NCBI GenBank assembly: GCA_900321715.1
Contig: ONXC01000011.1
Coordinates: 1 to 61,696 of the forward strand
Length of the DNA: 61,696 nucleotides
From: an uncultured Bacteroidales bacterium
Lineage (GTDB): Bacteria; Bacteroidota; Bacteroidia; Bacteroidales; UBA932
Reading direction: 5' to 3'
In this document: positions 941-61,658 of the stretch, in pieces
Numbering within the stretch: position 1 is the stretch's first letter
Layout: each line of letters begins with the position of its first letter
Translations under genes and position numbers: made by a program
Notes under the pieces: generated by a model
Seen by the model: the letters and a program-made list of their open reading frames with translations, nothing else
What the model was told of the DNA's origin: nothing
Database searches by the model: none

Positions 941-2364
941 TTGAAACTGAGCACTACGTCCTGAAGATGTGCAACGAACTTATCCAGCGAAGAGAGTTCC
1001 AGTTTTTCTCCTGGAGCATGGACGCCGCGGAGGGTGGGGCCGAAGGAAATCATGTCAAGGTCCGGGAACTTCTCAAGGAAAAGACCGCACTCAAGGCCTG
1101 CGTGGATGGCTTTTACCTCAGGCTCTGTATTGAACAGCCTGCGGTAGCTCTCTACTGATACTTCCAGGATATGTGATTTGAGGTTGGGTTTCCAGCCGGG
1201 GTATTCACCGTGATGCTCTACGTCAAAGGAGCCAAGGAAGAAGGAGGCTTCCACGCGCTCTGCCATGGCATGGAGCTCACTCACAACGGAGCTTCTCTGG
1301 CTGGTTATGACCTTAAGGGTATCTCCCTCAATGTGCGCAGCAGCAAGGTTTGAGGAAGTTTCCACAAGGCCGGGGATATCTACGGACATCTGCTCTACCC
1401 CGTGAGGGACGGCAAGAAGGGTTGCAATGATATTTGCGGCATCCCCTTCCTCTATGGGTTTCTCTGAGGCCGATGCACTCTCACAGGACGCCCTTACAAG
1501 AGGGTCTGAGGAAGCGAATTCTGCCTCCAGAAGCTTGGAGAACGCCTCTACGTCCTCTTTCATCTCATCAATCTCATCAGCGGGCACGGCAATTAAGGCC
1601 TCAGCCTCACGGCAGATGGCGTTGGGTTTATTACCGCCATCAAGGCCGATAAGCTGGAAGTCATACTGCAATTCCGTGAAGAGGAAGCGCACAAGGAGGC
1701 GGAGGGCATTTGCCCTTTCCTTATTTATATCGTCTCCGCTGTGGCCTCCCTGGGCACCTGAGACGCGGATCTTAAGCACCTTGTAACCTTTTCTGAGGGG
1801 TTCCCTGTGGAAATTGAAGGTGGCGGTGGTGTCTATTCCGCCGGCGCAGCCCACAAACAGCTGGCCTTCATCCTCAGAGTCAAGGTTGATGAGGGTTTTC
1901 CCTTCAAAGAAGCCGGGCTCAAGGGCAAACGCGCCGTCCATTCCGGTTTCTTCAGAGATGGTAAAGAGGCACTCCAGCCTGCCCATGGGGAGATCTCCGT
2001 CCAGAAGGGCAAGGCAGGCGGCAATACCAATTCCGTCATCGGCCCCAAGCGTTGTATTCTTTGCTATCATCCAGCCGTCCTCTATCTCATACGGGATAGG
2101 GTCCTTGAGGAAGTCGAACTCAAAGCCGGCGTTTTTCTCACAAACCATGTCCTGATGGGCCTGGAGAACAAGGGTGGGAACATTCTCCTTGCCCTTGGAA
2201 GCGGGTTTTGTGATTACCACGTTGCCGGTTTTGTCCGTTTTGCACTTTAGACCGCGTGCTGCGGCAAAGTCCTGGAGATATTTGGTGATAGGGCCTTCAT
2301 GGCCTGATTCCCTGGGGATTGCGGTGATTTCCTTGAAGAAACCAAGAACTGAAGCGGAATTCAT
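937..2364 (-). CDS. pepD: Cytosolic aminoacyl-histidine dipeptidase (peptidase D, M20 family)
   Basis: This is a zinc metallopeptidase that hydrolyses dipeptides such as Xaa-His. The 475-residue product matches PepD length and the M20 layout. Visible motifs are the first metal-binding block LQAHQDMVCEKN, the bridging Asp in TLGADDGIG, the catalytic Glu pair in ISEETGMDG, and LDSEDEG. A lid/dimerisation domain follows (about 190-390), then a C-terminal His-containing metal site (GLECGLF region). No signal peptide is present. It is the first gene of a two-gene unit with rpe. A TAACTTTG box on the minus strand (2394-2387) lies 22 nt before the start. Confidence 0.94.
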   Translation of the reverse strand: MNSASVLGFFKEITAIPRESGHEGPITKYLQDFAAARGLKCKTDKTGNVVITKPASKGKENVPTLVLQAHQDMVCEKNAGFEFDFLKDPIPYEIEDGWMIAKNTTLGADDGIGIAACLALLDGDLPMGRLECLFTISEETGMDGAFALEPGFFEGKTLINLDSEDEGQLFVGCAGGIDTTATFNFHREPLRKGYKVLKIRVSGAQGGHSGDDINKERANALRLLVRFLFTELQYDFQLIGLDGGNKPNAICREAEALIAVPADEIDEMKEDVEAFSKLLEAEFASSDPLVRASCESASASEKPIEEGDAANIIATLLAVPHGVEQMSVDIPGLVETSSNLAAAHIEGDTLKVITSQRSSVVSELHAMAERVEASFFLGSFDVEHHGEYPGWKPNLKSHILEVSVESYRRLFNTEPEVKAIHAGLECGLFLEKFPDLDMISFGPTLRGVHAPGEKLELSSLDKFVAHLQDVVLSFK

Positions 2365-2386
2365 ATTGATTCTTGTTAGATTTTGT

Positions 2387-2394
2387 CAAAGTTA
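2387..2394 (-). promoter_or_regulatory. Probable -7 box for pepD-rpe
   Basis: The minus-strand TAACTTTG matches TAnnTTTG and lies 22 nt upstream of the pepD ATG. No clear TTTG is present at the ideal 19-nt spacing, so this is a half match. Confidence 0.45.
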
Positions 2395-2395
2395 G

Positions 2396-2403
2396 TAAAT
2401 TTG
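2396..2403 (+). promoter_or_regulatory. Probable -7 box for the ammonia-lyase gene
   Basis: TAAATTTG matches TAnnTTTG and lies 20 nt before the ATG at 2424. A weak CTTG sits about 20 nt upstream. It is nearly back to back with the divergent pepD box. Confidence 0.45.
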
Positions 2404-2423
2404 CATGACATTTTGAACAGATT

Positions 2424-3947
2424 ATGAAGTATTTTTCTACGGAGTATGTGCGCCGCGTAGTGTTTGGCGGAGAAAAACTTGTGTTGCCGGAAAAGGCTAT
2501 GCAGGAAGTTGAGCGCTGTTACCGTTTCCTCAAAGAATTCCACAAAGATAAAGTCATTTACGGTATAAATACGGGGTTCGGCCCCATGGCCCAGTGGCGC
2601 GTGGAGGATGATTACCTGAAGGATCTCCAATATAATATAATAAGGAGTCATTCAACCGGCGCCGGAAAGCCCCTTGGAGACGCTTCCGTGAGGGCCGCTA
2701 TGGTGGCCCGCATCGGCACCTTCCTCCAGGCACGCTCAGGTGTGCATCCTGATGTGATAAGGCTTCTGGCCAATTTCCTGAATAACGGCATCTACCCCTT
2801 CATCCCCCGCCACGGCAGCGTGGGGGCCAGCGGAGACCTTGTCCAGCTTGCCCACATAGCCCTTGCACTGATTGGAGAAGGAGAAGTGCATTATAAGGGA
2901 GAGTGGCGTCCCACCGGAGAGGTTCTGGCCCAGTGCGGCCTCAAACCCATGGAGATCCACATCAGGGAGGGCTTATCGGCAGTAAATGGCACCTCCGTAA
3001 TGACGGGCATATCCCTTGTGAACCAGTTCCAGGCCGATATCCTCCTGGACTGGGCCACCCTTGCAGCGGTTTGGATGAACGAGATAGCGGGTTCCTACGA
3101 CGACTTTATGGCTGAGGCCCTGAATGAGTGCCGCCGCCAGAGGGGGCAGCAGGTAATTGCCGCACGTCTCCGGAAACTTGCGGCCGATTCCAAGTGCCTG
3201 TCAAAGCGTGAGATTGAGCTCTACAACGGCGGCCATAAGGAGGAAGTTTTTGAGAAGAAGGTCCAGGCCTACTATTCCCTGAGGTGCACTCCCCAGATCC
3301 TCGGTCCAATATATGACACCTTCCAATCGGCCTCAGAAGTACTTGAGAACGAGATTAATTCCGCGTGTGACAATCCAATCGTGGACCCTGACACCAAGTA
3401 CGTGTACCACGGCGGCAACTTCCACGGAGACTACATCTCTCTGGAGGAAGACAAGGTGAAGATTGCCCTTGTGCGTCTCACTATGCTCACGGAAAGGCAG
3501 CTCAACTACCTCTTCCATGACCGCATCAACGGCATCCTGCCCCCGTTCCTGAACATGGGTAAGCTGGGCCTCAATTACGGCATGCAGGCCTGCCAGTTCA
3601 CTGCAACCTCCACTACTGCAGAGTGCCAGACCCTTGCCATGCCAAATTACGTACACAGCATCCCCAACAACAACGACAACCAGGACATAGTCTCCATGGG
3701 CACAAATACCGCCCTCCTCTGCCGTCAGGTTGTTGAGAATTCATTCCAGGTAATGGCCATCCACTACATTGCCCTTGCCCAGGCAACTGATATCCTTGGG
3801 ATAAAGGATAAGCTGTGCTCTGCATCCCGCCGTGCATATGATGCCGTGCGGGCCATCCAGCCCGTTATTCTGGAAGACACGCCTTTCTATAAGGAGATAT
3901 CGGCCGTAATCACATGGCTCAAGCGGAACCCGCTGGACCTTGCATAA
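2424..3947 (+). CDS. MIO-dependent aromatic amino acid ammonia-lyase (histidine or tyrosine ammonia-lyase)
   Basis: This enzyme deaminates an aromatic amino acid to the corresponding acrylate (urocanate or coumarate type). The 507-residue product is one full PAL/HAL family subunit. The Ala-Ser-Gly that cyclises into the MIO cofactor is visible near residue 135 (GSVGASGDLVQLAH). Other family motifs are YGINTGFGPMAQ, LQYNIIRSHSTGAG, EINSACDNPIV, YHGGNFHGDYIS and SIPNNNDNQD. An automatic pipeline would call it hutH. Several segments (GFGPMAQ, ASGDLVQL, EGEVHYKGE, YYSLRC-PQILGP) resemble, from memory, the Flavobacterium johnsoniae enzyme known as a tyrosine ammonia-lyase. No hutU, hutI or flexirubin genes are in the window. 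The family is certain; the substrate is open. Confidence 0.88.
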   Translation: MKYFSTEYVRRVVFGGEKLVLPEKAMQEVERCYRFLKEFHKDKVIYGINTGFGPMAQWRVEDDYLKDLQYNIIRSHSTGAGKPLGDASVRAAMVARIGTFLQARSGVHPDVIRLLANFLNNGIYPFIPRHGSVGASGDLVQLAHIALALIGEGEVHYKGEWRPTGEVLAQCGLKPMEIHIREGLSAVNGTSVMTGISLVNQFQADILLDWATLAAVWMNEIAGSYDDFMAEALNECRRQRGQQVIAARLRKLAADSKCLSKREIELYNGGHKEEVFEKKVQAYYSLRCTPQILGPIYDTFQSASEVLENEINSACDNPIVDPDTKYVYHGGNFHGDYISLEEDKVKIALVRLTMLTERQLNYLFHDRINGILPPFLNMGKLGLNYGMQACQFTATSTTAECQTLAMPNYVHSIPNNNDNQDIVSMGTNTALLCRQVVENSFQVMAIHYIALAQATDILGIKDKLCSASRRAYDAVRAIQPVILEDTPFYKEISAVITWLKRNPLDLA

Positions 3948-5691: not shown

Positions 5692-6822
5692 TTACTTGAC
5701 TGGAGAAGTTGCGCCATCTTCTACTTTCACAATGTAAGAATCAGGAAATTTTTTCTGAATGGAAGGATAATTTTTCTTCACATCCTGAAGTTTTTCCGAA
5801 ACACCCACCACATACTTAACTAATTTCCCAGCAGGAAGTTTCATGGGCTTGTACCCGGCAAAGAAAGGATCCGAGTCTTTCATGTCCTTGGAAGAAACCA
5901 GGACCTGAACGCCGTAGAGGACCTTGGGCTGCCCTACTTCAGGAGACTCCCGGTCTGGGCCGGGAGTGACGGAAGGCTCTGCCGGAGTGTCATTGCCGAC
6001 TTGATCGGCAATCTCTTCCCTGTCATACCTGGCCTTGTAGATGCGGAAAGCCTTGTAGATATTCTGGGCTATCTGGTCCCTTCCAATCTCCGAGCGAAGT
6101 ACGGCAAGGTCCTGGGGGTTGGTCATGAAGCCAACCTCTATCAGGACGGCCGGCATAGCGGTGCGCCAGAGCACCCAGAAAGGGTCCTGGGATACTCCCC
6201 TGTTGGTTTTGATGGGACCTCCCTCCATGGCCTGCGCAACATCTGCGGCAAACTCAAGGCTCTGGCCGAGATGGGCATTCTGCATGAGGGAGAATATGAT
6301 GGAAGACGAAGGGTCGTCGGGGTCAAACCCCTGATAAGTAGCGGCATAGTTCTTCTCCAGCTTGATAACGGAGTTCTCCCTCTTTACAAGGTCCAGGTTC
6401 TTGGAATAAAGGTCGTTGCCCTTTTTCTTGGACTGTCCTAGGCAGTGAATGGAATAGCCGTTTGCTGCGGTTGAGCCGTCAACGGCGTTCACGTGCACGG
6501 AAATGAAAAGATCGGCCCCTGATTTATTTGCAAAGACGGCGCGGTTCTCAAGTTCTACAAAATGGTCATCGGAGCGCGTCATCTTTACGTTTACGTCCGG
6601 ATATGAGGCCGATATCTTCTGGGCCAGGCGCTTGGCGATGTCCAGGGCTATGTTTTTCTCATAGGTTTTCTGGTCACGGCTTACGCATCCGGCATCCTTG
6701 CCGCCGTGTCCGGGGTCAATGACTACGGTCCTAAGGCGCATGGCCGTCTCCTGCGCGGGTACGGGAATTGCAAGTAAGACGGCGGAAATTACGGCTATGA
6801 TATGGCTAAAACGCAGCTTCAT
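5692..6822 (-). CDS. Periplasmic N-acetylmuramoyl-L-alanine amidase (Amidase_3, AmiC-like)
   Basis: This zinc amidase cleaves the bond between MurNAc and the stem peptide of peptidoglycan, usually during cell separation. The start is set at 6822 because MKLRFSHIIAVISAVLLA...PVPAQ is a clear signal peptide; the 60 residues upstream are non-coding in character. The mature protein (376 codons in all) has the Amidase_3 zinc motifs VVIDPGHGGKDAG and a downstream Glu/His set (ISVHVNAVDGS, VLIEVGFMTNP). The C-terminal 100 residues form a separate, possibly SPOR-like region (VLYGVQVLVSSKDM). It is divergent from lptD, another envelope gene. Confidence 0.92.
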   Translation of the reverse strand: MKLRFSHIIAVISAVLLAIPVPAQETAMRLRTVVIDPGHGGKDAGCVSRDQKTYEKNIALDIAKRLAQKISASYPDVNVKMTRSDDHFVELENRAVFANKSGADLFISVHVNAVDGSTAANGYSIHCLGQSKKKGNDLYSKNLDLVKRENSVIKLEKNYAATYQGFDPDDPSSSIIFSLMQNAHLGQSLEFAADVAQAMEGGPIKTNRGVSQDPFWVLWRTAMPAVLIEVGFMTNPQDLAVLRSEIGRDQIAQNIYKAFRIYKARYDREEIADQVGNDTPAEPSVTPGPDRESPEVGQPKVLYGVQVLVSSKDMKDSDPFFAGYKPMKLPAGKLVKYVVGVSEKLQDVKKNYPSIQKKFPDSYIVKVEDGATSPVK

Positions 6823-6908: not shown

Positions 6909-9860
6909 ATGAAAGGGAATTTGCGGAAATATCTTCTTGCCCTGGCACTGTGTGCGGCCTTTGTGGCCCCCTGTGCCCATGCCAGAGTGTTCCGCCAGGC
7001 ACCGGATTCCGTTGCCAAGGCTTCCCTTGACAGCCTGATATCGGCCGTCAGAGATTCATCGGCCACAAGCCGTGACAGCCTTTTCCGCGCAAAGAGAGAC
7101 TCCGTTGCAAGGGCCGATTCCATCTCAAAGTTACGCGCCGATTCCCTGGACCTCCTGAGCAAGAGCTCCCTGGAAGTCCCCGCATTCTCTACCGCCAAGG
7201 ACTCCATCATCACGGATTTTTCCGGCGGCAGACGCATGATCTACTACTACGGCGGCGCAACTGTCCAGTACGAGAACATGAAGCTCACCGCAGACTACAT
7301 AGAGTATGACATGGATGCCAATACCGTGTATGCCAGGGGCCAGAAAGACACCCTCACGGGTGAGTGGAAGGGCCTCCCGGAAATGACGGAAGGCGCCCAG
7401 ACATACAAGATGGATGAGCTCCACTACAACTTCGACTCCCGCAAGGCACGCATTACAAATATGGTCACCAAGGAGGCCGAGGGCATACTCCAGGGCAAGA
7501 AGATCAAGATGATGCCGGACAAGTCCATCAACATGCGTAACGGCGTGTACACCGTCTGTGACCTTGAGCATCCGCACTATTACCTTAACCTCACCATGGC
7601 AAAGGTAATCACAAAGCCGTCCCAGAAGACGGTCTTCGGCCCGGCATGGCCGGTGATAGCGGATGTCCCCGCCTTCCCCATCATCCTCCCCTTCGGCTTT
7701 GTTCCAAAGAAGCCTTCCCGCGCTACGGGTATGCTCATGCCCACTTTCGGTGAGGAGCAGGCCCGCGGATTCTACATCAGGGATGCGGGTATGTACTTTG
7801 TGTTCGGAGACTACTTCGACCTTTCAGTCACCGGAGACTACTACACGCTGGGTTCATGGGCCATAGACCTTAACTCCAGATACAAGGTCAATTACAAGTT
7901 CAACGGATCCATCTCCCTCACCTACTCCAATGACCAGGCCGGTGAAAAGGGCAGCTCGGACTTCGTCCAGTCCCGTAACTTCGGCCTCAGATGGTCTCAC
8001 ACCCAGGATTCCAAGGCCCATCCCGGAACCACCTTCAGCGCATCCGTGAACTTCTCCAGCCCGTCCAACAGCCGCTACAACGCCCGAAGCGTGACGGACG
8101 CCCAGCAAAACCAGATCAGTTCATCCATTTCCTATTCCCATAACTGGAACGGAAAGTTCAACCTGAGCATCAACGCCCTCCATAACCAGAACTCCAGGGA
8201 CTCCAGCTACTCTTTCACCCTCCCCAACATCACCTTCAACGTAACGCGTTTCTACCCGTTCAAACGTAAGACCAGGGTTGGAAAGGAGCAGTTCTATGAG
8301 AAGATCTCGTTCGGTTATTCCACCTCTTTCCAGAACCGTATCAACTTCAAGATGAGGGAACTTCAGGACTTCGTGATGGACGAGACCGGCAATCACGTAA
8401 CCATTATCGACGAACTGAACAACAAGACATACCGTGAGAAGGCATTTGGAGATTCCCTGGCCATAAAGGCGCTTGGGAAACTCACCAACGGCATGACCCA
8501 CAACTTCCAGATCGGCCTTCCAAACTTTACGCTGTTCAAATACATCAACGTAACGCCCAGTATCTCATATGGCATGAACTGGATGTTCTCCAAGGGTGAA
8601 CAGCATCTGGAAAATGAACTGGACGCAGACGGAAACCCCATCATGGTAACGGACAAGAACGGACAGGAGGTAATAGCCCAAAAGCTTGTAAGTGACCCCG
8701 GAACGGCATTCAACGGCTTTGGAATGACGCACACGTATTCCGGAAGCATGTCCATGAGCACCCGTATATACGGTATGTTCAATTTTGGAAAGCATCGGCG
8801 TGTACAGGCAATACGCCATGTGATAACGCCCTCGATGTCCCTCAGCTTCTCTCCGGAAAAAGGTACGGCATTCAACGGCTGGCGCACTCTGGACCCGTAT
8901 TACGACAAGAGAGGCACCTTCCACGACGTAACCTGGTACAATATATACAGTATCAGCGGTAACCACAATAACGCCTCCCCTCCCGGAAGGGGTAAGAGCG
9001 CCACTATGTCCCTGTCATTCGGCAACAACCTTGAAGCCAAGGTAAGGGATGTGCGTGACACCACCGGTACTGGTTCAAAGAAGGTAAAGCTGCTGGACCA
9101 GCTGAACATCAACACCAGCTATAACTTCCTGGCCGATTCCCTGAGGATGAATAATATCGGAATATCGGCCTCTACAAGGCTTTTCAACAAAGTCAGCATC
9201 AGCGGTAACCTGAACTTTGACCCTTACGCCATCAACGAGCAGGGAAAGAAGATCAATAAGCTCAACATCGTGGCAACCGGCGTGCCTGCAAGGCTCACCA
9301 ACGCATCCCTGTCGGCCTCCTATGCCATCAACGGTAAGGGCGCAACGGACGGAGACGACGGCACCCGCTCCGGCAAGGGCGGAGGAAGCGGCAGCGGCGG
9401 TTCCGGGGCAACGGCTTCATATGAACGCATATACTACCACCCCATCACCGGAGAATATATCCCGGGCGGATACGTATATTATATGAACAGCAACGCGCCC
9501 TGGAGCGTGAATTTCAGCTATAGCTTCAACTATTCCAAGAGCTACACCTATCAGAGTACCACCAAGGAACTAATTGAGAACAAGCGCTTCACCCAAACCC
9601 TCAATGTGAGCGGAAACATCAAGCTCACGCCGCGTCTGAGCATCCAGGCCACCTCCGGCTTCGACATAATGGCCATGAGGTTCACAACCACCCAGCTCAG
9701 CGCCACCTATGACCTCCACTGCTTCAATATCGCCCTCTCCTGGGTGCCTATGGGCCAGTGGAAGAGCTACAGCTTCCGTATTGCCGCAAATGCATCGGCC
9801 CTTGCCGATCTCCTGAGATTCAAAAAATCCGACTCTTACATGGATAACATGTTGAAGTAA
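6909..9860 (+). CDS. lptD: Outer-membrane LPS-assembly protein LptD (OstA-like)
   Basis: LptD is the beta-barrel that inserts lipopolysaccharide into the outer leaflet of the outer membrane. The 983-residue product begins with a signal peptide (cleavage near CAHA). A Ser/Asp/Arg-rich linker (25-75) precedes an OstA/LptA-like jellyroll (about 107-200, with YGGATVQYEN and LTADYIEYDMD). The rest is a long barrel of alternating aromatic and polar strands. A Gly/Ser-rich loop lies near residues 817-830. The length fits Bacteroidota LptD, which is larger than the E. coli protein. No terminator is seen after it; the rho promoter follows directly. Confidence 0.9.
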   Translation: MKGNLRKYLLALALCAAFVAPCAHARVFRQAPDSVAKASLDSLISAVRDSSATSRDSLFRAKRDSVARADSISKLRADSLDLLSKSSLEVPAFSTAKDSIITDFSGGRRMIYYYGGATVQYENMKLTADYIEYDMDANTVYARGQKDTLTGEWKGLPEMTEGAQTYKMDELHYNFDSRKARITNMVTKEAEGILQGKKIKMMPDKSINMRNGVYTVCDLEHPHYYLNLTMAKVITKPSQKTVFGPAWPVIADVPAFPIILPFGFVPKKPSRATGMLMPTFGEEQARGFYIRDAGMYFVFGDYFDLSVTGDYYTLGSWAIDLNSRYKVNYKFNGSISLTYSNDQAGEKGSSDFVQSRNFGLRWSHTQDSKAHPGTTFSASVNFSSPSNSRYNARSVTDAQQNQISSSISYSHNWNGKFNLSINALHNQNSRDSSYSFTLPNITFNVTRFYPFKRKTRVGKEQFYEKISFGYSTSFQNRINFKMRELQDFVMDETGNHVTIIDELNNKTYREKAFGDSLAIKALGKLTNGMTHNFQIGLPNFTLFKYINVTPSISYGMNWMFSKGEQHLENELDADGNPIMVTDKNGQEVIAQKLVSDPGTAFNGFGMTHTYSGSMSMSTRIYGMFNFGKHRRVQAIRHVITPSMSLSFSPEKGTAFNGWRTLDPYYDKRGTFHDVTWYNIYSISGNHNNASPPGRGKSATMSLSFGNNLEAKVRDVRDTTGTGSKKVKLLDQLNINTSYNFLADSLRMNNIGISASTRLFNKVSISGNLNFDPYAINEQGKKINKLNIVATGVPARLTNASLSASYAINGKGATDGDDGTRSGKGGGSGSGGSGATASYERIYYHPITGEYIPGGYVYYMNSNAPWSVNFSYSFNYSKSYTYQSTTKELIENKRFTQTLNVSGNIKLTPRLSIQATSGFDIMAMRFTTTQLSATYDLHCFNIALSWVPMGQWKSYSFRIAANASALADLLRFKKSDSYMDNMLK

Positions 9861-18539: not shown

Positions 18540-18541
18540 TA

Positions 18542-37969: not shown

Positions 37970-37977
37970 TTTATTCC

Positions 37978-40255: not shown

Positions 40256-40271
40256 ATTGTTGCGTTATTGA

Positions 40272-41261: not shown

Positions 41262-41266
41262 AGCTA

Positions 41267-51272: not shown

Positions 51273-51947
51273 TTAGTGTTTTTTCCAGTTTATTACGGCA
51301 TCCAGAAGCCAGGAGGCGAATTCATCCACGCCCTCTCCGGTTTTGGCCGATATGGGAATGACGCGCGCCTTGGGATTACGCATATGGACGTATTCACGGC
51401 ACTTTTCCATATCAAAGTCAAAGTAAGGAAGGACATCAACCTTATTGACCACAACTACGTCGCAGATGGAGAACATCAGGGGGTATTTGAGGGGTTTGTC
51501 ATGGCCTTCCGGGACAGAGAGGATCATGGCGTTGCAGGAACTGCCGGTGTCAAACTCTGCGGGACACACAAGGTTTCCAACGTTCTCAAGGATAACCAGG
51601 TCCACATCCTCCATGGGCATATTGTCAAGGCCCTGGCGCGTCATTTCAGCGTCCAGGTGGCACATGCCTCCAGTGTGTAGCTGGATGGAAGGGATTCCGG
51701 TGGCTTCCTTGATCTTGACGGCATCTACATCAGAGTCTATATCGGCCTCCATCACCGCAACACGGATTTTGTCCTTGATGCGGTTTATGGTCTGGATAAG
51801 GGTGGTGGTTTTGCCGCTGCCGGGCGAAGACATCAGATTGAGGAGGAAAACGCCTTTGGCTTTCAACTCTTTACGCAGGGCATCTGCGTCCAGGTTGTTA
51901 TCCTCAAAGACACTCTTTTTAATTTCGATAATCTTTACCGAATCCAT
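51273..51947 (-). CDS. hypB: Nickel-insertion GTPase HypB
   Basis: HypB hydrolyses GTP to drive nickel delivery with HypA. The start is 51947 (MDSVKIIEIKKSVF), giving 224 residues; the longer ORF reads into the divergent promoter region. The P-loop SSPGSGKTT lies near 38, the metal site GGMCHLDAEM and LENVGNLVCPAEFD follow, and NKVD gives guanine specificity. The His-rich or CxxCGC N-terminal nickel-binding motif seen in some HypB proteins is absent. It is the first gene of the minus-strand group hypB - flavoprotein - hypA. Confidence 0.95.
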   Translation of the reverse strand: MDSVKIIEIKKSVFEDNNLDADALRKELKAKGVFLLNLMSSPGSGKTTTLIQTINRIKDKIRVAVMEADIDSDVDAVKIKEATGIPSIQLHTGGMCHLDAEMTRQGLDNMPMEDVDLVILENVGNLVCPAEFDTGSSCNAMILSVPEGHDKPLKYPLMFSICDVVVVNKVDVLPYFDFDMEKCREYVHMRNPKARVIPISAKTGEGVDEFASWLLDAVINWKKH

Positions 51948-52072: not shown

Positions 52073-53665
52073 ATGAATCCAAACGAATTTGACGTAATTA
52101 TCATAGGCGGTGGTATCACCGGGGCCGGAACGCAGAGAGACTGCGCCATGAGAGGCCTCAGGACCCTGCTTATTGAGCGTTCAGACATTGCAACAGGCGC
52201 TACGGGCCGTAATCACGGCCTCCTTCACAGCGGCGCGCGGTATGCAGTCAACGATTCAGAATCGGCCCGGGAATGTATTGAGGAGAATATGATCCTGAGG
52301 CGCATCGCATCCCACTGCATAGATGAGACCGACGGCCTTTTCATCACCCTCCCGGAAGATGACCTTGCATACCAGCAAACCTTTGTCCAGGCATGCCAGA
52401 ACGCGGGTATCAACGCAGAAATAATTGACCCTGACCTTGCCAGAAGGCTTGAGCCTTCCGTGAATCCTGCCCTCATAGGCGCAGTTCGCGTCCCTGACGG
52501 CAGCGTGGATCCCTTCCGCCTCTGCGCCGCCAACATGCTGGATGCAAAGCTCCACGGCGGCCAGGTGCGCCTCCAGACAGAGGTCACGGGCTTTATCCGT
52601 GAGGGAGACGCCATCATCGGCGTCCATACCCGTAACATTGCCGGTGAGGAGGCCGATTATTACGCCCCCGTCACCGTGAACGCCTGCGGAATCTGGGGCC
52701 ACGGCATTGCATCCCTTGCGGGCGTGAACGTTGGGATGTACCCCGCAAAGGGCGCGCTCCTCATCTTTGCCCACAGGGTGAACAACATGGTGATAAACCG
52801 CTGCAGAAAGCCTTCAAATGCCGATATCCTGGTGCCCGGAGACACCGTCTGCGTCATAGGAACAACCTCTACCCGCATCCCGTTCGAGGAATGCGACCAC
52901 GTTGCAGTAACGCCGGATGAAGTAACCCTCCTCATCACGGAAGGCGCAAAGCTTGCCCCTTCACTATCATCCACCAGGATCCTTCGCGCATATGCCGGTG
53001 TCCGTCCGCTTGTATCGGCCGATGACGACCCTACCGGCCGAAACATCTCCCGCGGCATTGTATGCCTTGACCATGAGGTGCGCGACGGCCTTAAGGGATT
53101 CATCACAATCACTGGCGGTAAGCTCATGACTTACAGGCTTATGGCAGAGATTGCAACCAATGCCGTCTGCCAGAAGCTGGGCATTGACAAGCCCTGCGAA
53201 ACCGCTACCACTCCCCTTCCCGGAAGTGAGGAGAAATCCTATGAGGCGGTGGCCCAGAAAATATGGGAAGCCCCTTCATCGGCCCAGAAGGCTGCTGCAT
53301 CCAGGATGGGCACAAGGGCGTCACGCCTCCGCACCGGAGACCGCCGCGACGACGCCCTCATCTGCGAATGCGAGGAAGTGTCCGTGGGTGAGATCAACGC
53401 CGCAATAGACCGCCTTGAGGTAAGCACCCTTACCGATCTTCGCCGGCGCACGCGCGTTGGCATGGGCACCTGCCAGGGAGAGTTCTGCGCCTGCCGCGCA
53501 GCCGGTCTCCTGGCCAAGGCCCACGGCTGCATAGAGCGGGAAAGGAAAGATCTGGCCAATTTCCTCCAGGAGCGCTGGAAGGGCAACTTCCCCATCGGCT
53601 GGGGAGACACTCTCCGTGAAGCGGAATACACTCAGTGGGTTTATAAACACGTGTTAGGCCTATGA
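52073..53665 (+). CDS. glpA: Anaerobic glycerol-3-phosphate dehydrogenase, subunit A
   Basis: GlpA is the FAD subunit of the GlpABC complex, which oxidises sn-glycerol 3-phosphate to dihydroxyacetone phosphate at the membrane. The ATG at 52073 is preferred over a TTG extension at 52049. The 530-residue product has the FAD motif IIIGGGITGAG, the family block GRNHGLLHSGARY and TITGGKLMTYRLMAE. A C-terminal BFD-like [2Fe-2S] domain carries the Cys residues in ICECEEVSVGE and GTCQGEFCACR. It overlaps glpB by 4 nt. Confidence 0.95.
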   Translation: MNPNEFDVIIIGGGITGAGTQRDCAMRGLRTLLIERSDIATGATGRNHGLLHSGARYAVNDSESARECIEENMILRRIASHCIDETDGLFITLPEDDLAYQQTFVQACQNAGINAEIIDPDLARRLEPSVNPALIGAVRVPDGSVDPFRLCAANMLDAKLHGGQVRLQTEVTGFIREGDAIIGVHTRNIAGEEADYYAPVTVNACGIWGHGIASLAGVNVGMYPAKGALLIFAHRVNNMVINRCRKPSNADILVPGDTVCVIGTTSTRIPFEECDHVAVTPDEVTLLITEGAKLAPSLSSTRILRAYAGVRPLVSADDDPTGRNISRGIVCLDHEVRDGLKGFITITGGKLMTYRLMAEIATNAVCQKLGIDKPCETATTPLPGSEEKSYEAVAQKIWEAPSSAQKAAASRMGTRASRLRTGDRRDDALICECEEVSVGEINAAIDRLEVSTLTDLRRRTRVGMGTCQGEFCACRAAGLLAKAHGCIERERKDLANFLQERWKGNFPIGWGDTLREAEYTQWVYKHVLGL

Positions 53666-54783
53666 AGTTCGATGTTGTTATAGTAGGTGGCGGCCTTGCC
53701 GGAATGGTGGCGGGCATAAGCCTCCAGAAAGCCGGTCTTTCAACGGCCATAATATCGGGCGGCCAGAACGCCCTGCACTTCTTCTCCGGAACGTTTGAAT
53801 CCCTTACGGTCCCGGAGCCCCGCCTCTCCACCCTTTTCCAGGAAGCGGGGATTCATGTCCACTATAAGGAAGGCGTACGCCTCATGCCTCTTGGCACCTT
53901 CCGTCCCAGTGCACTTTCACTTGAAGACATAAGCATTTTCGACTCTCCAAAAATCGGCCGTAAAGCCCTTGTGGTCAATTTCCTTGGCTATCACGACTTC
54001 TTCTCCTCCTTCCTTGCCGACGGCCTTGAAAAAGAGGGTATGGAGTGCCGCATACGCTTTATCTCGCTGCCGGAACTGGAACAGCTCCAGCTCTCGCCCT
54101 CGGAGATGCGCTCAGTCCAGATTGCCCGCAAGATGGACCGCGTGTGGGAGAAGGTTGTGCAGGAGGTACGCGTGCTCCTGAAGGATGAGGACACAGTGGT
54201 CCTCCCCCAGGTTTTCGGCCTTCTGGACCCTTCCGTTCCCAGCCGTATCCGCCAGGGCATCCCCGCCCAGGTGGTGTTTGCCGGAACCATGCCCCCGTCC
54301 GTCCCGGGAATCCGCACACAGATGCTCCTAAAACGCCGTTTTGAGGTGCTGGGAGGCACTTTCCTGGCCGGCGACGAAGCCATTGAGGCTCACATCCATG
54401 AGGGTGTGGTGCATAGCGTCGTGACGCGTAACCTTGACTCCCATTACATAGAGGGTAAATGGTTTATCCTTGCAACCGGCGGATATTTCTCAAAGGGCCT
54501 GAGGAGTAATCCCTTTGAGGTGTCGGAGCCCGTATTCGGCCTTGACGTAGAAAGCGCCCCAGACCGCAATGAGTGGTACAATCCTTCCTTTGCGGGAGAC
54601 CAGCCTTATATGGGATACGGCGTGAAGACGGATCCTTCCCTCCACGGCTACCGTGAGGGCTCTCCCCTTCAGAACCTCTTTGCCATAGGCTCCGTCCTTG
54701 GCACCACACGTCCGGAATTCGGTTCAGCAGCCGGAATGGCAATCAATTCCGCCTTTGCGGCCGTAGATCAAATCTTGAAATAG
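53662..54783 (+). CDS. glpB: Anaerobic glycerol-3-phosphate dehydrogenase, subunit B
   Basis: GlpB is the second flavin-binding subunit and probably passes electrons from GlpA to GlpC. The 373-residue product begins with a Rossmann FMN/FAD motif (VVIVGGGLAGMVAGISL). It has GQNALHFFSGTFESL and FILATGGYFSKGL, and ends with RPEFGSAAGMAINSAF, all typical of GlpB. The length is slightly below that of E. coli GlpB (419). It overlaps glpA by 4 nt and is 2 nt from glpC, so the three subunits are probably made in step. Confidence 0.94.
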   Translation: MKFDVVIVGGGLAGMVAGISLQKAGLSTAIISGGQNALHFFSGTFESLTVPEPRLSTLFQEAGIHVHYKEGVRLMPLGTFRPSALSLEDISIFDSPKIGRKALVVNFLGYHDFFSSFLADGLEKEGMECRIRFISLPELEQLQLSPSEMRSVQIARKMDRVWEKVVQEVRVLLKDEDTVVLPQVFGLLDPSVPSRIRQGIPAQVVFAGTMPPSVPGIRTQMLLKRRFEVLGGTFLAGDEAIEAHIHEGVVHSVVTRNLDSHYIEGKWFILATGGYFSKGLRSNPFEVSEPVFGLDVESAPDRNEWYNPSFAGDQPYMGYGVKTDPSLHGYREGSPLQNLFAIGSVLGTTRPEFGSAAGMAINSAFAAVDQILK

Positions 54784-54785: not shown

Positions 54786-56003
54786 ATGGCAAAGCTTCAG
54801 GAATATACTTCCAGTTCCCACAACTTTGAGGAATGCATGAAGTGCACGGTGTGCACCGCATACTGTCCAGTACTGCAGGTGAATCCCCTCTACCCCGGTC
54901 CCAAGCAGGCCGGCCCTGACGGAGAGCGCCTGCGCCTCAAGGACCCTTACTTTTTCAACTATGCGCTCAAGTACTGCCTCAATTGCAAGCGCTGCGAGGT
55001 AGCCTGCCCGTCCGGGGTGGATGTGGCCGATCTAATCCAGAGCGCCCGCATAAAGTACGAGAAACAACCCCCCAAGCTCCGTGACGTGATGCTGGCCAAT
55101 ACCGATTTCATGGGCACAATGGCGCGTCCGTTTGCCCCTATCGTTAACGGCGTCACGGGACTTGGAGTCACCAAGCAGGCCCTTGACTGGACGCTTGCAA
55201 TTGACCGTCACCGTACCTTCCCCAAATACAGCGCCCGCAGCTTCGAGGGCTGGCTCAAGCGCCGCCGCAAGGAGCAGGCCGCTTTTCCTGAGCAGGTGGC
55301 ATATTTCCACGGCTGCTACGTGAACTACAACTATCCCCAGCTTGGCAAGGACCTTGTGAAGGTTCTCAATGCCCTTGGCGTTGGCGTTCAGCTCCTTGAA
55401 AAGGAAAAGTGCTGCGGAATTGCCCTCATCACAAACGGGCTTTCAAAGCAGGCAACAAAGCAGGCAACCCATAATGTCGAGGTACTCAAAAAGGCAGTTG
55501 TTGATGCCGGGCTAAAGGTGATAACCACATCTTCAACCTGCACGCTCACCCTCCGTGATGAATACCCCAACCTCCTTGGAGTGGACAATTCCGAGGTAAG
55601 GGATGCCATCCAGATGGCCGTGCGCTTCATCTTTGAGAAGCTTGAAAAAGGCGCCACGCTTAAGTTTAAGGCCGATTACCACAAGAAGGTAGCCTACCAC
55701 GTCCCCTGCCATATGGAAAAGCTTGGATGGGGCGTTTTCACGGAGAAACTCCTGAGGATGATTCCGGGGGTGGAGTTCACGCTCCTTGAATCGGCCTGCT
55801 GCGGAATTGCCGGCACCTACGGCTTCAAGAAAGAGAACTATGAGTCCTCCCAGGCCATAGGCGCCGCCCTCTTTGAGCAGATAAAGAACGTCAATCCTGA
55901 CGTTGTTGCCTGCGACTGCGAAACCTGCAAATGGCAGATAGAGATGAGCACAGGCTACACGGTTATGAATCCAATATCAATTTTAGCAGAAGCTATTGAG
56001 TAA
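54786..56003 (+). CDS. glpC: Anaerobic glycerol-3-phosphate dehydrogenase, subunit C
   Basis: GlpC is the iron-sulfur subunit that anchors the complex and hands electrons to the quinone pool. The 405-residue product has two 4Fe-4S sites, CMKCTVCTAYCP and CLNCKRCEVACP, in the first 80 residues. Two CCG domains follow (YFHGCYVNYNYP...KEKCCG, and YHVPCHMEKLG...SACCGIAGTYG). No transmembrane helix is seen, as in other GlpC. The glycerophosphodiesterase gene starts 1 nt after its stop. Confidence 0.95.
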   Translation: MAKLQEYTSSSHNFEECMKCTVCTAYCPVLQVNPLYPGPKQAGPDGERLRLKDPYFFNYALKYCLNCKRCEVACPSGVDVADLIQSARIKYEKQPPKLRDVMLANTDFMGTMARPFAPIVNGVTGLGVTKQALDWTLAIDRHRTFPKYSARSFEGWLKRRRKEQAAFPEQVAYFHGCYVNYNYPQLGKDLVKVLNALGVGVQLLEKEKCCGIALITNGLSKQATKQATHNVEVLKKAVVDAGLKVITTSSTCTLTLRDEYPNLLGVDNSEVRDAIQMAVRFIFEKLEKGATLKFKADYHKKVAYHVPCHMEKLGWGVFTEKLLRMIPGVEFTLLESACCGIAGTYGFKKENYESSQAIGAALFEQIKNVNPDVVACDCETCKWQIEMSTGYTVMNPISILAEAIE

Positions 56004-56004: not shown

Positions 56005-56886
56005 ATGAAAAAACTTCTTCTTCCCCTTGTTGTAATGGCTGCAGTATCATGCGGCACATCGGCCCCTCACGGTCCCATTGACGTACAGGCCCACCGCGGA
56101 GGCGCCGGACTGTATCCGGAGAACACCATCCCCGCAATGAAAAACGCCCTGGACATGGACGTGAATACCCTGGAGTTTGACCTCCATCTGTCATCAGACC
56201 TTCAGGTGGTGGTTTCCCATGACCCCTATTTCCATGAGCGCTATTCCACACGCCCGGACGGCTCACTTGTAAAGAAGGGAGATCCCAAGGAATACCTCTT
56301 CACAATGCCCTACGACAGCATAGCAAGGTATGATGTAGGCCTGAGGCACGTAGACCGCTGGCCTGACCAGGTGAAGGTTGCCGTGGCAAAGCCCCTGGCA
56401 TCGGAGCTCATAGATTTCACGGAAAGCTACGCCAAGAGCCCCGTGAACTACAACATTGAGATAAAGTCCGTAGATGATGAAGGCGAAGGCACTCTGTGGC
56501 CGGATTACAAGACTTTCTGCGACGTCTGCATTCCCCTCCTCCTTTCAAAGAATCTTGGGGATAGACTCATTGTCCAGAGCTTTGACACCCGCGCACTCAA
56601 TTACATCCATGAGAAATGGCCTGAGGTAACCCTTTCATATCTTACCGAACCCTTCGACGGCGGAAACATCGAAAAACTCCTTGGGAATCTTGACTTTGTC
56701 CCTCAGTGGTGGAGTCCGGAATCCCATGTAGTCACAAAGAAAAACGTGGCCTGGTGCCATGCTCACGGCATTGGAGTAGTGCCCTGGACCGTAGACAGCA
56801 AGGCCGAGATGCGCCGTATGGTAAAGTGCGGCGTGGAAGCCATCATCTCCAACTATCCTGACCGTCTGATTGAAGTAGTAAGATAA
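56005..56886 (+). CDS. glpQ: Glycerophosphodiester phosphodiesterase lipoprotein
   Basis: This enzyme splits glycerophosphodiesters (deacylated phospholipids) into G3P and an alcohol. The start at 56005 gives a lipoprotein signal (MAAVSC), so it acts in the periplasm or at the outer membrane. The 293-residue product shows the GDPD motifs: HRGGAGLYPENT with catalytic His, the Glu in LEFDLHLS, VVSHDPYF with the second His, and the metal-binding Glu in NIEIKSV. It is placed just before glpT, which would import the released G3P. Confidence 0.93.
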   Translation: MKKLLLPLVVMAAVSCGTSAPHGPIDVQAHRGGAGLYPENTIPAMKNALDMDVNTLEFDLHLSSDLQVVVSHDPYFHERYSTRPDGSLVKKGDPKEYLFTMPYDSIARYDVGLRHVDRWPDQVKVAVAKPLASELIDFTESYAKSPVNYNIEIKSVDDEGEGTLWPDYKTFCDVCIPLLLSKNLGDRLIVQSFDTRALNYIHEKWPEVTLSYLTEPFDGGNIEKLLGNLDFVPQWWSPESHVVTKKNVAWCHAHGIGVVPWTVDSKAEMRRMVKCGVEAIISNYPDRLIEVVR

Positions 56887-58259
56887 TGCTCAGTTTCCTT
56901 CGTCAACCCGCTTACCTCCCCGCCCAGACCGGCCCGGAGGCCGATGCAAAATACAAACGCATGCGCCTGCAGGTATTCCTTGGCGCATTCATCGGCTATG
57001 CCGGCTTCTACCTTGTGCGTAAGAACCTCTCGCTGGCCATTCCCTTCATGGCACCCCTCGGGTTCCAGAAGGCGGAACTTGGCTTTGTGCTTGGTATCAA
57101 CGCCGCCGCGTACGCCCTTTCAAAATTCCTGATGGGAAGCGTCTCCGACCGCTCAAACGCCCGTGTTTTCCTTCCCCTGGGGCTTATCCTCAGCGCCCTG
57201 TCAATGGCGTTTATGATAGTTCCCATCAAGTATTTAGGGGCCGATAACAAGGCCCTTGCAATAGTTGTGATGGGTATCCTGAATGCCTGCGTGGGCTGGT
57301 TCAACGGCATGGGCTGGCCTCCATGCGGCCGAGTCATGACGCACTGGTTCTCTCCCGGGGAACGCGGCACCATGATGAGCATCTGGAACTGCGCCCATAA
57401 CGTGGGCGGTGGCCTTGTGGGCCTTATGGCCACATACGGAGCCATCTGGTTCGGAAGCTGGTTCTACGGTGCCCACACGGAACTTTACTTCCTAATCGGC
57501 ACATTTGCTTTCCCCGCGGCGGTTGCGCTTATGGTGGCCGTGCTGGCTTTTGTGCTTCTGCGCGATACGCCCCAGTCCTGCGGCCTGCAGTCCGTGGAGG
57601 CATGGCGCAATGACTACCCCAAGAACTATTCAGAAAAGCATGAAGAGACGTTATCGGCCAAAGATATCTTCTTCAAGTACGTCCTTAACAACAAGTTCCT
57701 GTGGTTCATAGCCCTTGCCAACGCGTTTGTGTATATGGTGCGTTACGGCTGCCTTGACTGGGCCCCTACCCTCCTTACGGAAAAGGGCATAGACATCAAG
57801 TCAATGGGCTGGGCATATTCGGCCTATGAATTTGCCGCCATTCCCGGCACCATCATCTGCGGATGGCTTTCAGATAAGGTTTTCCACGGCCGCCGCGCCC
57901 TTCCCACCATCATCTTCATGGCCCTTGTGCTGGTGTTCGTGGTGCTCTACTGGCAGTTCATGGACAACATCACCGTGGTTATGATCTGCCTTATCGGCAT
58001 TGGATTCTTCATCTACGGTCCTGTGATGCTCATCGGCGTACAGGCACTGGACTTGGCTCCAAAGAACGCCGCAGGCACCGCCGCCGGCCTTACGGGCTTC
58101 TTCGGCTACTTCTTCGGGACCTTCCTCCTTGCCAACTGGATCCTTGGCCTTGTGGCTCAGTCCATGGGCTGGAACTCCACGTTTGTGCTTCTCATCGCCG
58201 CCTGCATCCTCTCCATGCTCTTCATGGGCCTCACCCTAAAGGAGGAACGAAAAGGCTGA
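56886..58259 (+). CDS. glpT: Glycerol-3-phosphate transporter (MFS, organophosphate:Pi antiporter)
   Basis: GlpT exchanges external G3P for internal phosphate across the inner membrane. The 457-residue product has about 12 membrane helices and the family hallmark FIGYAGFYLVRKNLSLAIP. The conserved block GWFNGMGWPPCGRVMTHWF carries one substrate-binding Arg, as in GlpT/UhpT. An MFS motif KFLMGSVSDRSNARVF is also present. The first base of its ATG is the last base of the glpQ stop (TAATG). A strong terminator follows. Confidence 0.94.
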   Translation: MLSFLRQPAYLPAQTGPEADAKYKRMRLQVFLGAFIGYAGFYLVRKNLSLAIPFMAPLGFQKAELGFVLGINAAAYALSKFLMGSVSDRSNARVFLPLGLILSALSMAFMIVPIKYLGADNKALAIVVMGILNACVGWFNGMGWPPCGRVMTHWFSPGERGTMMSIWNCAHNVGGGLVGLMATYGAIWFGSWFYGAHTELYFLIGTFAFPAAVALMVAVLAFVLLRDTPQSCGLQSVEAWRNDYPKNYSEKHEETLSAKDIFFKYVLNNKFLWFIALANAFVYMVRYGCLDWAPTLLTEKGIDIKSMGWAYSAYEFAAIPGTIICGWLSDKVFHGRRALPTIIFMALVLVFVVLYWQFMDNITVVMICLIGIGFFIYGPVMLIGVQALDLAPKNAAGTAAGLTGFFGYFFGTFLLANWILGLVAQSMGWNSTFVLLIAACILSMLFMGLTLKEERKG

Positions 58260-59115: not shown

Positions 59116-59117
59116 AG

Positions 59118-60602
59118 TTATTTTTTAGTTATCGTTCTTGAAATTGCATCGGCCCAGCCTTCACGTGCGGCGGTCATGTCAGCGCCGGTGGGAGTGAATG
59201 TGCGGTCGGCCTGCCACTGCTGCTTGATCTCCTCCAGGGAGCCCCAGAAGCCCACTGCAAGGCCTGCAAGGTACGCTGCGCCCATGGCTGTGGTCTCAAC
59301 TACACGGGGACGCACTACGGTGGTGTCAAGGACATCGGCCTGGAACTGCATCATGAGGTTATTGGCCGATGCTCCGCCGTCTACCTTCAGCTCTGCCAGC
59401 TTCACGCCTGCGTCACGCTCCATTGCACGGACGATGTCCATGGTCTGGAAGGCGATGCCTTCAAGGGCTGCACGGGCAATGTGAGCCGCAGTTGTGCCGC
59501 GGGTGATGCCGCAGATGACGCCGTGGGCGTACTGGTCCCAGTAAGGGGCCCCCATGCCGGTGAGGGCTGGCACAAAGTACACGCCGCCGTTGTCAGGGAC
59601 AGATGCTGCAAGTGCCTCTACCTCAGAGGAGCTCTTGATTACGCCAAGGCCGTCACGGAGCCACTGCACTACGCTTCCGCCCACGAAGATGGAGCCTTCA
59701 AGCGCGTAATTCACGGTGTCCCCTATCTTCCAGGCAACCGTAGTGAGGAGGTTGTTCATGGAAAGGATGGGCTCCTTGCCGGTATTCATAAGGAGGAAGC
59801 AGCCGGTACCATAGGTGTTCTTTACAGAACCCGGAGCGGTGCACATCTGGCCGAAGAGAGCGGCCTGCTGGTCACCGGCAATACCGGAAATTGGGACCTC
59901 ATGGGCAAAGATGGTGGTTTTGGTGTAACCGTAAACCTCTGACGACGAGCACACCCTGGGCATCATGGAAAGCGGAACGTCCAGAAGGTCAAGAAGCTCC
60001 GGATCCCACTCAAGGGTGTTGATGTTGAAGAGCATGGTACGGGAGGCATTGGACACATCAGTGATGTGCACCTCTCCCCTTGTGAGCTGCCATACAAGCC
60101 AGGAATCTACGGTACCGAAGCGAAGCTTGCCGGCACTTGCCTTCTCACGTGCACCTGGAACGTTGTCAAGAATCCATTTGATCTTGGTGCCGGAGAAATA
60201 GGCATCTATGATAAGGCCAGTCTTACGGCGGATCTTCTCCACAAGGCCCTGTGCCTTCAGGGTGTCGCAGAACTCAGATGTGCGGCGGTCCTGCCACACT
60301 ATGGCGTTATAGACGGGAAGGCCGGTCTCTGCGTCCCACACAATTGTGGTTTCCCTCTGGTTTGTAATGCCGATACCTGCAATGTCAAGGCCGTTGATTC
60401 CTATCTTGGAGATGGCCTGGGCAATGACTGCGGCCTCTGACGACCATATTTCCATGGGGTCATGCTCCACCCAGCCGGGTTTGGGGAAATGCTGGGTGAA
60501 CTCCTGCTGGGCGCTGGAGCAGATGTTGCCGTTGTGGTCAAAGACGATGGCCCTGGAGGAACTGGTTCCCTGGTCAAGGGCAAGGACGTATTTCTTACTC
60601 AT
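59118..60602 (-). CDS. glpK: Glycerol kinase
   Basis: GlpK phosphorylates glycerol to sn-glycerol 3-phosphate with ATP, trapping it in the cytosol. The 494-residue product is full length for the FGGY kinase family. Visible motifs are [16 protein letters not shown] (phosphate loop), [13 protein letters not shown], the catalytic Asp in [26 protein letters not shown] and [14 protein letters not shown]. The ATG lies 17 nt after a terminator-like hairpin (60620-60636), with little room for a promoter between. Confidence 0.97.
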
Positions 60603-60607
60603 AATGC

Positions 60608-60636
60608 AAAAAACAGAGACCCCTCTGGCAGAGGGG
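60608..60636 (-). terminator. Terminator or attenuator hairpin just before glpK
   Basis: On the minus strand CCCCTCT (60636-60630) pairs with AGAGGGG (60626-60620) around GCC, followed by TCTCTG and six T residues (60613-60608). The T-run ends 5 nt before the glpK ATG. It can terminate transcripts coming from the hydrolase gene and may also control glpK. Confidence 0.78.
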
Positions 60637-60647
60637 CCTCAGTAGAA

Positions 60648-61658
60648 CTATTTGTTAACGATATAACCTCTGTTTGTGCCGTCCGGATAGATTCCAAGGG
60701 AAATCATGTTCCTGACGGTCTTGAGGAAGTTCAGTACCCTTGCCTTGTAAGCGGCAGGATCCTTCTGGAAGGAGTTAGCGTGAACTGCGCCGGGGCACAC
60801 GTACATTTCCTTGTAACCGTGCTTCTTTGCGTCATAGTTCTTCTGGAGGTGGCTGAACGGGACAAAGTCGTCGGCGTCACCGTGGATGAAGAGCATGGGG
60901 ACGGTGCTCTTTTTGAGCTGCTCAACTGAAGAAGCCTCCCAGAAGCCCCAGTTGTATTTCTTCTTGGCCACGAGGGATGCGCTCTGGAGTACATCCGGAG
61001 GGATGAAACCGAAGCTGTCCTTACGGTTCTTGTTGAACTGGGATACCACGGAAGTGTAGCCGCAGTCTTCAACAATTGCCTTCACATACTCAGGGAGCTC
61101 ATCTCCGGAAGCCATCATGACGGTTGCACCGCCCATGGATACGCCGTGGAACACCATGAAGTCGTCGTTGAAGATCTTGTGGGCTTCCTTTGCCCAGATT
61201 TCAAGGTCAAGGCGGTCGAACCAGCCCATCTGGATTTCATCACCCTCTGAATAACCGTGATACTGAAGATCCGGGAACAGGACATTGTAGTTGAATTCAT
61301 CCCTGTACATGCGTACAAGATAGAGGAACACGAAGTGGTTGTCTCCGTAGCCATGGACTACGATTGCGGTGCCCTGGGCGTTGTCCGGGTCCTTTGCAGG
61401 TACGTAGCAGGCGTGGATGTTCTTGTTGTCCCAGCTGGTAGTCCAAACGTCCTTAAGGATGCCCTGGGCCTTGAGGCCGTCGTACCAGGCCGTTGAGCCG
61501 GGAAGGAGGGAATCCGCCTTTTCGCGGGTGCGGTCTATATCGGCCACGCCGTGCACTGAAGGTGTAAGCGCATAGCTGGACATGAACTTACCGGCAAGGC
61601 AGCCGCTGAGGGAAAGGGCCATCAGGCCGATGGCCATCACATTGAAAATCCTTTTCAT
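60648..61658 (-). CDS. Alpha/beta-hydrolase lipoprotein
   Basis: The 336-residue product has a lipoprotein signal (LSLSGC) and an alpha/beta-hydrolase fold. HGYGDN is the likely oxyanion region, HGVSMGGAT the nucleophile elbow (Ser), HGDADDFVP the Asp region and GAVHANS the His. Relatives are labelled esterase, acylglycerol lipase or BAAT-like hydrolase; the substrate is unknown. It follows the partial outer-membrane protein gene by 5 nt and ends before the hairpin upstream of glpK. A lipase role would fit the nearby glycerol genes, but this is conjecture. Confidence 0.82.
   Translation of the reverse strand: MKRIFNVMAIGLMALSLSGCLAGKFMSSYALTPSVHGVADIDRTREKADSLLPGSTAWYDGLKAQGILKDVWTTSWDNKNIHACYVPAKDPDNAQGTAIVVHGYGDNHFVFLYLVRMYRDEFNYNVLFPDLQYHGYSEGDEIQMGWFDRLDLEIWAKEAHKIFNDDFMVFHGVSMGGATVMMASGDELPEYVKAIVEDCGYTSVVSQFNKNRKDSFGFIPPDVLQSASLVAKKKYNWGFWEASSVEQLKKSTVPMLFIHGDADDFVPFSHLQKNYDAKKHGYKEMYVCPGAVHANSFQKDPAAYKARVLNFLKTVRNMISLGIYPDGTNRGYIVNK

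Follow-up and report, generated by a model that had tools for sequence, protein, structure and literature searches.

The stretch of DNA analyzed here, a window of 61,696 nucleotides (contig ONXC01000011.1) from an uncultured bacterium of the order Bacteroidales, is studded with the heptamer GGCCGAT, which is not a palindrome. It holds 83 exact copies between position 1468, where the first begins, and position 61631, where the last ends (Table 1). The initial annotation of the window had put the number at about 83, near ten times chance, with the two orientations in balance. Both points are borne out: dinucleotide shuffles of the window yield 8.84 ± 2.94 copies (maximum over 100 shuffles, 16), and 39 copies lie on the plus strand and 44 on the minus strand. 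GGCCGAT is the commonest 7-mer of the window, where a third-order Markov model predicts 13.8 copies. The highest-order model predicts 77.7, a consequence of enrichment in the inner 6-mers (GCCGAT has 141 copies versus a third-order expectation of 41.8); the core of the signal is therefore approximately GCCGAT preceded by G.

The host genome of the window (G000; 2.04 Mb in 29 contigs, 81% complete) carries 3,279 copies (1662 forward and 1617 reverse), or about 1.6 per kb, against 226 (100 and 126) for the reversed word; the excess in the rest of the genome that the initial annotation had proposed as a check is thus present. Its remark that variants with another base at either end are far less common stands only in part, as two one-letter neighbors are enriched in genes, TGCCGAT (216 versus 59 expected) and, mildly, GGCCGAA (129 versus 77), while the remaining 19 lie at 0.26 to 1.39 of expectation. 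The base 3′ of the word is also biased, with C avoided (0.06 versus 0.13 in shuffled copies) and A favored (0.39 versus 0.24).

The simple rival explanation, already named when the word was first noticed, is that codon or codon-pair bias generates the excess. A strong phase preference speaks for it, since 289 of 684 genic copies read G.GCC.GAT. Nevertheless, it is refuted by shuffle totals, by the bias of the word's remaining base, which lies beyond the codon pair, and by the intergenic excess, and we give it next to no weight. Our gene calls were simple ones (the longest open frames, with a codon-use filter added for most tests). Across the 309 genes in a sample of 422 kb, the word occurs 646 times, versus 83.5 ± 10 in junction-preserving shuffles that keep the protein, the codon use of the genome and the dinucleotides across codon borders. 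The earlier claim that several codon frames are involved was also upheld, in that all six lie at 4.7 to 19.5 times expectation under this shuffle, two of them with only 4 and 6 copies. A simpler synonymous shuffle within genes gave a total expectation of 89.1 ± 9.1, in overall agreement; there, one rare frame showed no excess (4 versus 4.1) and one main frame held 118 copies versus 36. Instead of a full codon-pair-preserving shuffle, we examined the base outside the pair in the genes contained in a sample of 902 kb. Of 506 TCG-GCC pairs, 426 have an A in front (103 expected), and of 846 GCC-GAT pairs, 560 have a G there (323 expected). On the 3′ side, T comes after 52 of 80 GGC-CGA pairs (42.7 expected) and C after 259 of 598 ATC-GGC pairs, a small excess over 245.6. 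Control pairs show no such neighbor bias (GCC-GAC, 48 of 155 versus 43.9; TCC-GCC, 6 of 86 versus 9.0), and by this test codon-pair use does not explain the count. Of the 1253 TCG codons, 426 (a third) fall inside GGCCGAT, and 602 of 1527 Ser-Ala dipeptides use TCG, although it makes up 8% of serine codons. Finally, 55.8 kb of intergenic DNA contain 63 copies, versus 5.3 expected.

GGCCGAT occupies much of the space that proteins leave to it. In G000, it is used in 560 of 1035 permissive Ala-Asp contexts (54%; 80 to 82% after Lys, Glu or Trp), 259 of 328 Ile-Gly contexts (79%), 426 of 1217 Ser-Ala contexts (35%) and 52 of 280 Gly-Arg contexts, and in the two three-codon frames it is used in 6 of 94 and 13 of 64. 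The corresponding values in four low-motif genomes (G419, G061, G016 and G030) are 3 to 6% for Ala-Asp, 11 to 22% for Ile-Gly and 0 to 4% for Ser-Ala. The proteome itself leans slightly in the same direction: relative to expectation, four high-motif genomes have Ala-Asp at 1.09, Ser-Ala at 1.10 and Ile-Gly at 1.02, versus 0.94, 0.96 and 0.94 in six low-motif genomes, whereas Gly-Arg shows the opposite trend (1.02 versus 1.15). In the tenth of genes with the lowest G+C content at third codon positions (GC3), use falls to 0.43 of expected; low GC3 alone cuts the use of GCC and GGC, and this value does not by itself indicate acquisition of the genes from elsewhere.

Three long stretches of the window lack the word. 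The first (17526-21268) spans a run of FAD-oxidoreductase, DUF5689 and SusD genes, the second (29198-35435) a hybrid two-component regulator and an aldose epimerase, and the third (37192-42057) a hydrolase and a 742-amino-acid gene without assignment. Three genes within these gaps, with GC3 of 0.46 to 0.54, rank among the poorest in GGCCGAT relative to their opportunities.

Table 1. Positions and strands of all exact copies of GGCCGAT in the window
Position	Strand	Remark
1468..1474	+	
1644..1650	+	
2038..2044	-	
3032..3038	+	
3182..3188	+	
3326..3332	-	
3899..3905	-	
6511..6517	-	
6607..6613	+	
7040..7046	-	
7058..7064	-	
7112..7118	+	
8511..8517	-	
9131..9137	+	
9164..9170	-	
9794..9800	-	
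10163..10169	+	
10316..10322	-	
12664..12670	+	
12733..12739	+	
12865..12871	-	
13388..13394	+	
13722..13728	-	
14484..14490	+	
14771..14777	+	
15619..15625	-	
15875..15881	-	
16225..16231	+	
17414..17420	-	
17526..17532	+	
21268..21274	+	
21955..21961	-	
23916..23922	+	
25388..25394	+	
25474..25480	-	
26229..26235	-	
26496..26502	-	
27176..27182	+	
28658..28664	-	
29198..29204	+	
35435..35441	-	
36017..36023	-	
36101..36107	-	
36170..36176	+	
36944..36950	+	
37192..37198	+	
42057..42063	-	
42451..42457	-	
42763..42769	-	
42864..42870	+	
43084..43090	-	
43176..43182	+	
43614..43620	+	
45447..45453	-	
46245..46251	+	
46660..46666	-	
47337..47343	-	
48125..48131	-	
48200..48206	+	
48794..48800	+	
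49019..49025	+	
49794..49800	-	
50463..50469	-	
51345..51351	+	
51741..51747	-	
52261..52267	-	
52651..52657	+	
53014..53020	-	10-base palindrome with overlapping copy 53017..53023
53017..53023	+	overlaps copy 53014..53020
53278..53284	-	
53953..53959	-	
55025..55031	+	
55670..55676	+	
55790..55796	-	
56058..56064	-	
56939..56945	+	
57239..57245	+	
57653..57659	-	
59148..59154	-	
59334..59340	-	
59364..59370	+	
61539..61545	-	
61625..61631	+	

GGCCGAT is actively maintained at the DNA level. We compared G000 with three congeners, G411, G370 and G328 (94, 89 and 90% aligned nucleotide identity, respectively); the three comparisons all share G000 and are not independent. At aligned sites, the word is kept in 137 of 159, 78 of 96 and 57 of 77 cases, where all 7-mers together are kept in 73, 51 and 54%. 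Conservation at synonymous sites, suggested earlier as a check, exceeds expectation throughout, with 277 of 288 synonymous codons inside the word unchanged versus 249.8 expected (G411), 164 of 173 versus 123.6 (G370) and 124 of 136 versus 103.0 (G328). Expressed as changes relative to the same codons outside the word, these are 11 of 288 versus 38, 9 of 173 versus 49 and 12 of 136 versus 33. The ATC codon is the exception in two comparisons (27 of 30 kept versus 89% outside in G411; 9 of 12 versus 84% in G328). Where only one genome of a pair has the word, the other differs from it at two or more letters more often than is the case for control words (18 of 38, 18 of 33 and 18 of 29 sites, versus 31 to 36%; P = 0.026, 0.022 and 0.0006). 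The flanks of these sites diverge more than control flanks do (P = 0.027, 0.13 and 0.003), a difference that is clear for two of the three relatives. Newly arisen DNA uptake sequences (DUS) are likewise reported to differ at multiple letters, and our pattern fits the replacement of tracts through recombination that has been described for DUS (PMC2397512).

The word is also lineage specific, being highly iterated mainly in one clade of a single Bacteroidales genus. Among 300 genomes of the genus, G000 included (counts read by eye from a table, with rounded genome sizes), 28 reach at least 1 copy per kb and the others grade down to background, while the reversed word stays at or below about 0.2 per kb in all of them. 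None of 147 genomes outside the genus (1 from the family and 146 from the order) exceeds about 0.4 per kb. From the genus we took 15 high-motif and 15 low-motif genomes for trees and gene content. In a tree of AddB built from 29 of these (G368, which has no AddB match, was left out), 13 of the 14 high-motif genomes form one clade with support of 100/99, in which G332 branches first; low-motif G419 is its sister (support 93/83). The remaining one, G221 (0.63 per kb), falls outside the main clade and may represent a second origin. A ComEC tree of all 30 genomes agrees, except that G419 lies inside the high-motif clade. By MnmE, the nearest named relatives are uncultured Bacteroidales and Bacteroidia, many of them from rumen or gut. 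One congener, G003, was left out of later comparisons, having only small contigs (12 kb), and G005, with a sample of 69 kb, entered few of them, including the strand test on consecutive copies described below.

Other words stand out among the congeners. G030, low in GGCCGAT, has a weaker excess of GGCAAT, strongest before A or G and seen in all six frames (230 versus 98); GGCAAT-R may be the dialect of this genome, and further congeners may have dialects of their own. CATG is strongly depleted in the same genome. In G033, GAATAT/ATATTC is in excess (105 versus 52), and words containing GATC are depleted in the samples of G005, G019 and G028 (e.g., GAGATC, 4 versus 39 in G019), as from restriction avoidance.

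Candidate machinery was sought in the 30 sampled genomes. ComEC was found in all 30, DprA in 29 (none in G370) and an AddB-like nuclease in 29 (none in G368). ComEC is short, with 357 amino acids in G000 (contig C12, 27282-28352) and mostly about 350 to 390 across the genus by our own frames; little was matched beyond the Competence domain. G000 encodes an AddB-like protein (PDDEXK_1) as well as an AddA-like helicase of the UvrD type; their genes lie about 17 kb apart (C12, 14037-36787), with genes for XerD, ComEC and FtsK between them. The two nuclease-domain hits, the second of which was verified as the AddA-like helicase in G000 and is inferred to be so elsewhere, sit side by side in 14 of the 15 low-motif genomes (G401 has one hit). 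In the 15 high-motif genomes, they lie about 20 kb apart in 5 and on different contigs in 7; the other three have them adjacent (G332), single (G221) or missing (G368). We reject this split as the cause of the word, since G332, at 1.03 copies per kb, has an adjacent pair and is the first branch of the clade.

Four methyltransferase families were searched in the same genomes, which are incomplete metagenome assemblies, and none follows GGCCGAT: matches above the cutoff occur in 2 of 15 high-motif versus 7 of 15 low-motif genomes for PF01555, 6 versus 8 for PF00145, 5 versus 9 for PF02384 and 5 versus 5 for PF02086. Four high-motif genomes that are 87 to 91% complete (G365, G019, G296 and G270) match none of the four, PF07669 and others lying outside the search, and are thus perhaps poor in restriction-modification. 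A methyltransferase-driven iterated palindrome was rejected as far as these four families go, since no partner conserved with the word emerged from them.

We found no polarity of the word by a GC-skew proxy, with 445 copies on the strand that is locally G-rich and 415 on the other; GC skew here tracks gene strand (r = -0.66), so that it is only a proxy for replication direction. Consecutive copies in G000 lie on opposite strands in 450 cases versus 370; in six other genomes the lean is not significant, and in two of these it is reversed. Spacing between copies is near random (coefficient of variation, 1.12). An excess of 3-base overlapping pairs (29 versus 15.6 expected) is trivial, because Ser-Ala-Asp shares codons between both orientations. 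Opposite-orientation neighbors 4 to 59 bases apart lie inside genes in 45 of 48 cases and between genes in 3; inverted pairs of the terminator type are not what is seen, and a role as terminator hairpins was rejected.

Nearby copies may have a mild, strand-dependent effect. Across four distance bands and five genomes, synonymous opportunities lying no more than 240 bases from a same-strand copy are filled 592 times versus 671.6 expected, whereas no depletion is seen near an opposite-strand copy (852 versus 791.9). The z-values of this test are inflated, because each pair enters the count once from either end and a site can figure in more than one band. The same-strand depletion is clear in G000 and, in the other four genomes pooled, is clear in one band only; we regard local redundancy on the same strand as suggestive.

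Taken together, the data are fitted best by an uptake-like or recombination-linked word that marks DNA as self, a reading to which we would assign a probability of roughly 0.4. GGCCGAT would then work like a DUS: fragments from the same species would be more likely to be taken up or recombined when they carry it, alleles bearing it would spread by biased gene conversion (molecular drive), and the drive would act at any near-miss site tolerated by the protein. The weak redundancy on the same strand and its absence on the opposite strand suggest that a reader might act on a single strand, be it one that meets incoming DNA in single-stranded form or a helicase that translocates along it. The likeness to DUS and to the cyanobacterial highly iterated palindrome HIP1 that was drawn in the initial annotation holds as to the kind of element (codon frames, intergenic and genome-wide excess, synonymous conservation), although the methyltransferase link of HIP1 is absent for the four families searched. 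Natural competence is known in another member of the order, Porphyromonas gingivalis (PMC11532111), and a search of open-access titles and the opening lines of abstracts brought up no report of a word of the uptake, iterated or Chi type for Bacteroidetes or for Bacteroidales. A more specific version, in which a strand-specific self-recognition word serves natural transformation or recombination, incoming short single strands carrying it are preferred, and the drive has filled most of the available synonymous sites in Ala-Asp and Ile-Gly contexts and mildly shifted the proteome, seems to us doubtful.

Several observations weigh against a self-marking word. ComEC and DprA are equally present in the 15 low-motif genomes, and therefore do not explain the difference between high and low; our competence search covered these two proteins, with an uptake receptor, pilus and outer-membrane uptake parts outside it. 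Type IV pili are not a feature for which Bacteroidales are known. When ranked by conservation among CpG-containing words of matched G+C content, many of which have few sites, GGCCGAT comes 74th of 536 (G411), 8th of 324 (G370) and 39th of 211 (G328), and selection combined with regional differences in divergence could yield the pattern at sites present in only one genome. Use falls by just 8 to 24% near a same-strand copy (within 240 bases), less than redundancy on the scale of fragments would predict. One-letter neighbors as a group are not overrepresented (1165 versus about 1186), whereas in Haemophilus influenzae and Neisseria gonorrhoeae they are, under a different null model (PMC1939737). 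DUS are reported often to form terminator hairpins (PMC2397512), unlike the close inverted pairs here, nearly all of which lie within genes.

That GGCCGAT is a hot spot of the Chi type, read by AddAB on the translocating strand as a switch to recombination and kept dense by selection for repair, appears unlikely. The near-universal AddB-like nuclease, the AddA-like partner in G000 and the separation of the nuclease-domain hits in 12 of 15 high-motif genomes, set against their adjacency in 14 of 15 low-motif ones, would suit it, and depletion near same-strand but not opposite-strand copies is what a strand-specific reader should leave. However, no strand polarity was seen, which counts against a classical Chi, the opposite-strand lean of consecutive copies in G000 is the reverse of the polarization criterion for Chi, and 1.6 copies per kb compares with about one per 5 kb in Escherichia coli (PMC8022716); G332, the earliest branch, reaches its density with an adjacent pair. 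We consider it quite unlikely that the word is a by-product resembling HIP1, with modification or mismatch repair converting near misses to GGCCGAT at no benefit to the cell. It does fill much of the protein-permitted space with weak dependence on spacing, as if near misses were converted, and HIP1 is similarly dense (7402 copies in Synechococcus elongatus) and scarce in presumed foreign genes (PMC3025956). Yet none of the four methyltransferase families tracks the word, which counts against a cause of the HIP1 type within the limits of that search and of incomplete genomes; GGCCGAT is nonpalindromic, with an overlapping palindromic form at 30 places among 1468 copies, and genome-to-genome differences involve many positions. 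A binding site for a protein of the clade that organizes or segregates the chromosome, or has some other housekeeping role, would finally account for spread over the genome on both strands and for retention in the sampled clade, but we think it improbable, as no anatomy points there, spacing is near random and known segregation words are less dense.

The highly iterated words studied so far come from few lineages, namely Neisseria, the Pasteurellaceae and the cyanobacteria. A dense word in a clade of gut Bacteroidales, together with relatives that lack it, offers a natural comparison for the origin of such words and for the identity of their readers. It bears on the question whether DNA is exchanged by transformation among these uncultured bacteria, several of them without a matched restriction-modification methyltransferase in the families searched, and could mark membership of the clade in metagenomes. 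Should the uptake reading be true, DNA meant to transform these bacteria would need to carry GGCCGAT.

As with the DUS of the Neisseriaceae and the uptake signal sequences of the Pasteurellaceae, GGCCGAT is short, nonpalindromic and present about once or twice per kb; it is overrepresented on both strands with no polarity seen, is more conserved than its surroundings, with slightly greater flank divergence than at conserved control words, is low in genes of atypical composition and is confined to part of one genus. It differs from them in belonging to another phylum, in having its close inverted pairs inside genes and not at terminators, in filling synonymous sites heavily, in its weak strand-specific redundancy and in being known here from sequence alone. 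With HIP1 it shares density, iteration and scarcity in genes of atypical composition; however, it forms no palindrome, and of the four methyltransferase families searched none is conserved with it. Like the Chi sites of RecBCD and AddAB, it is short and nonpalindromic, shows a suggestive strand-specific local redundancy and occurs alongside AddB-like and AddA-like genes, but it has no visible polarity and is about eight times denser than Chi in E. coli.

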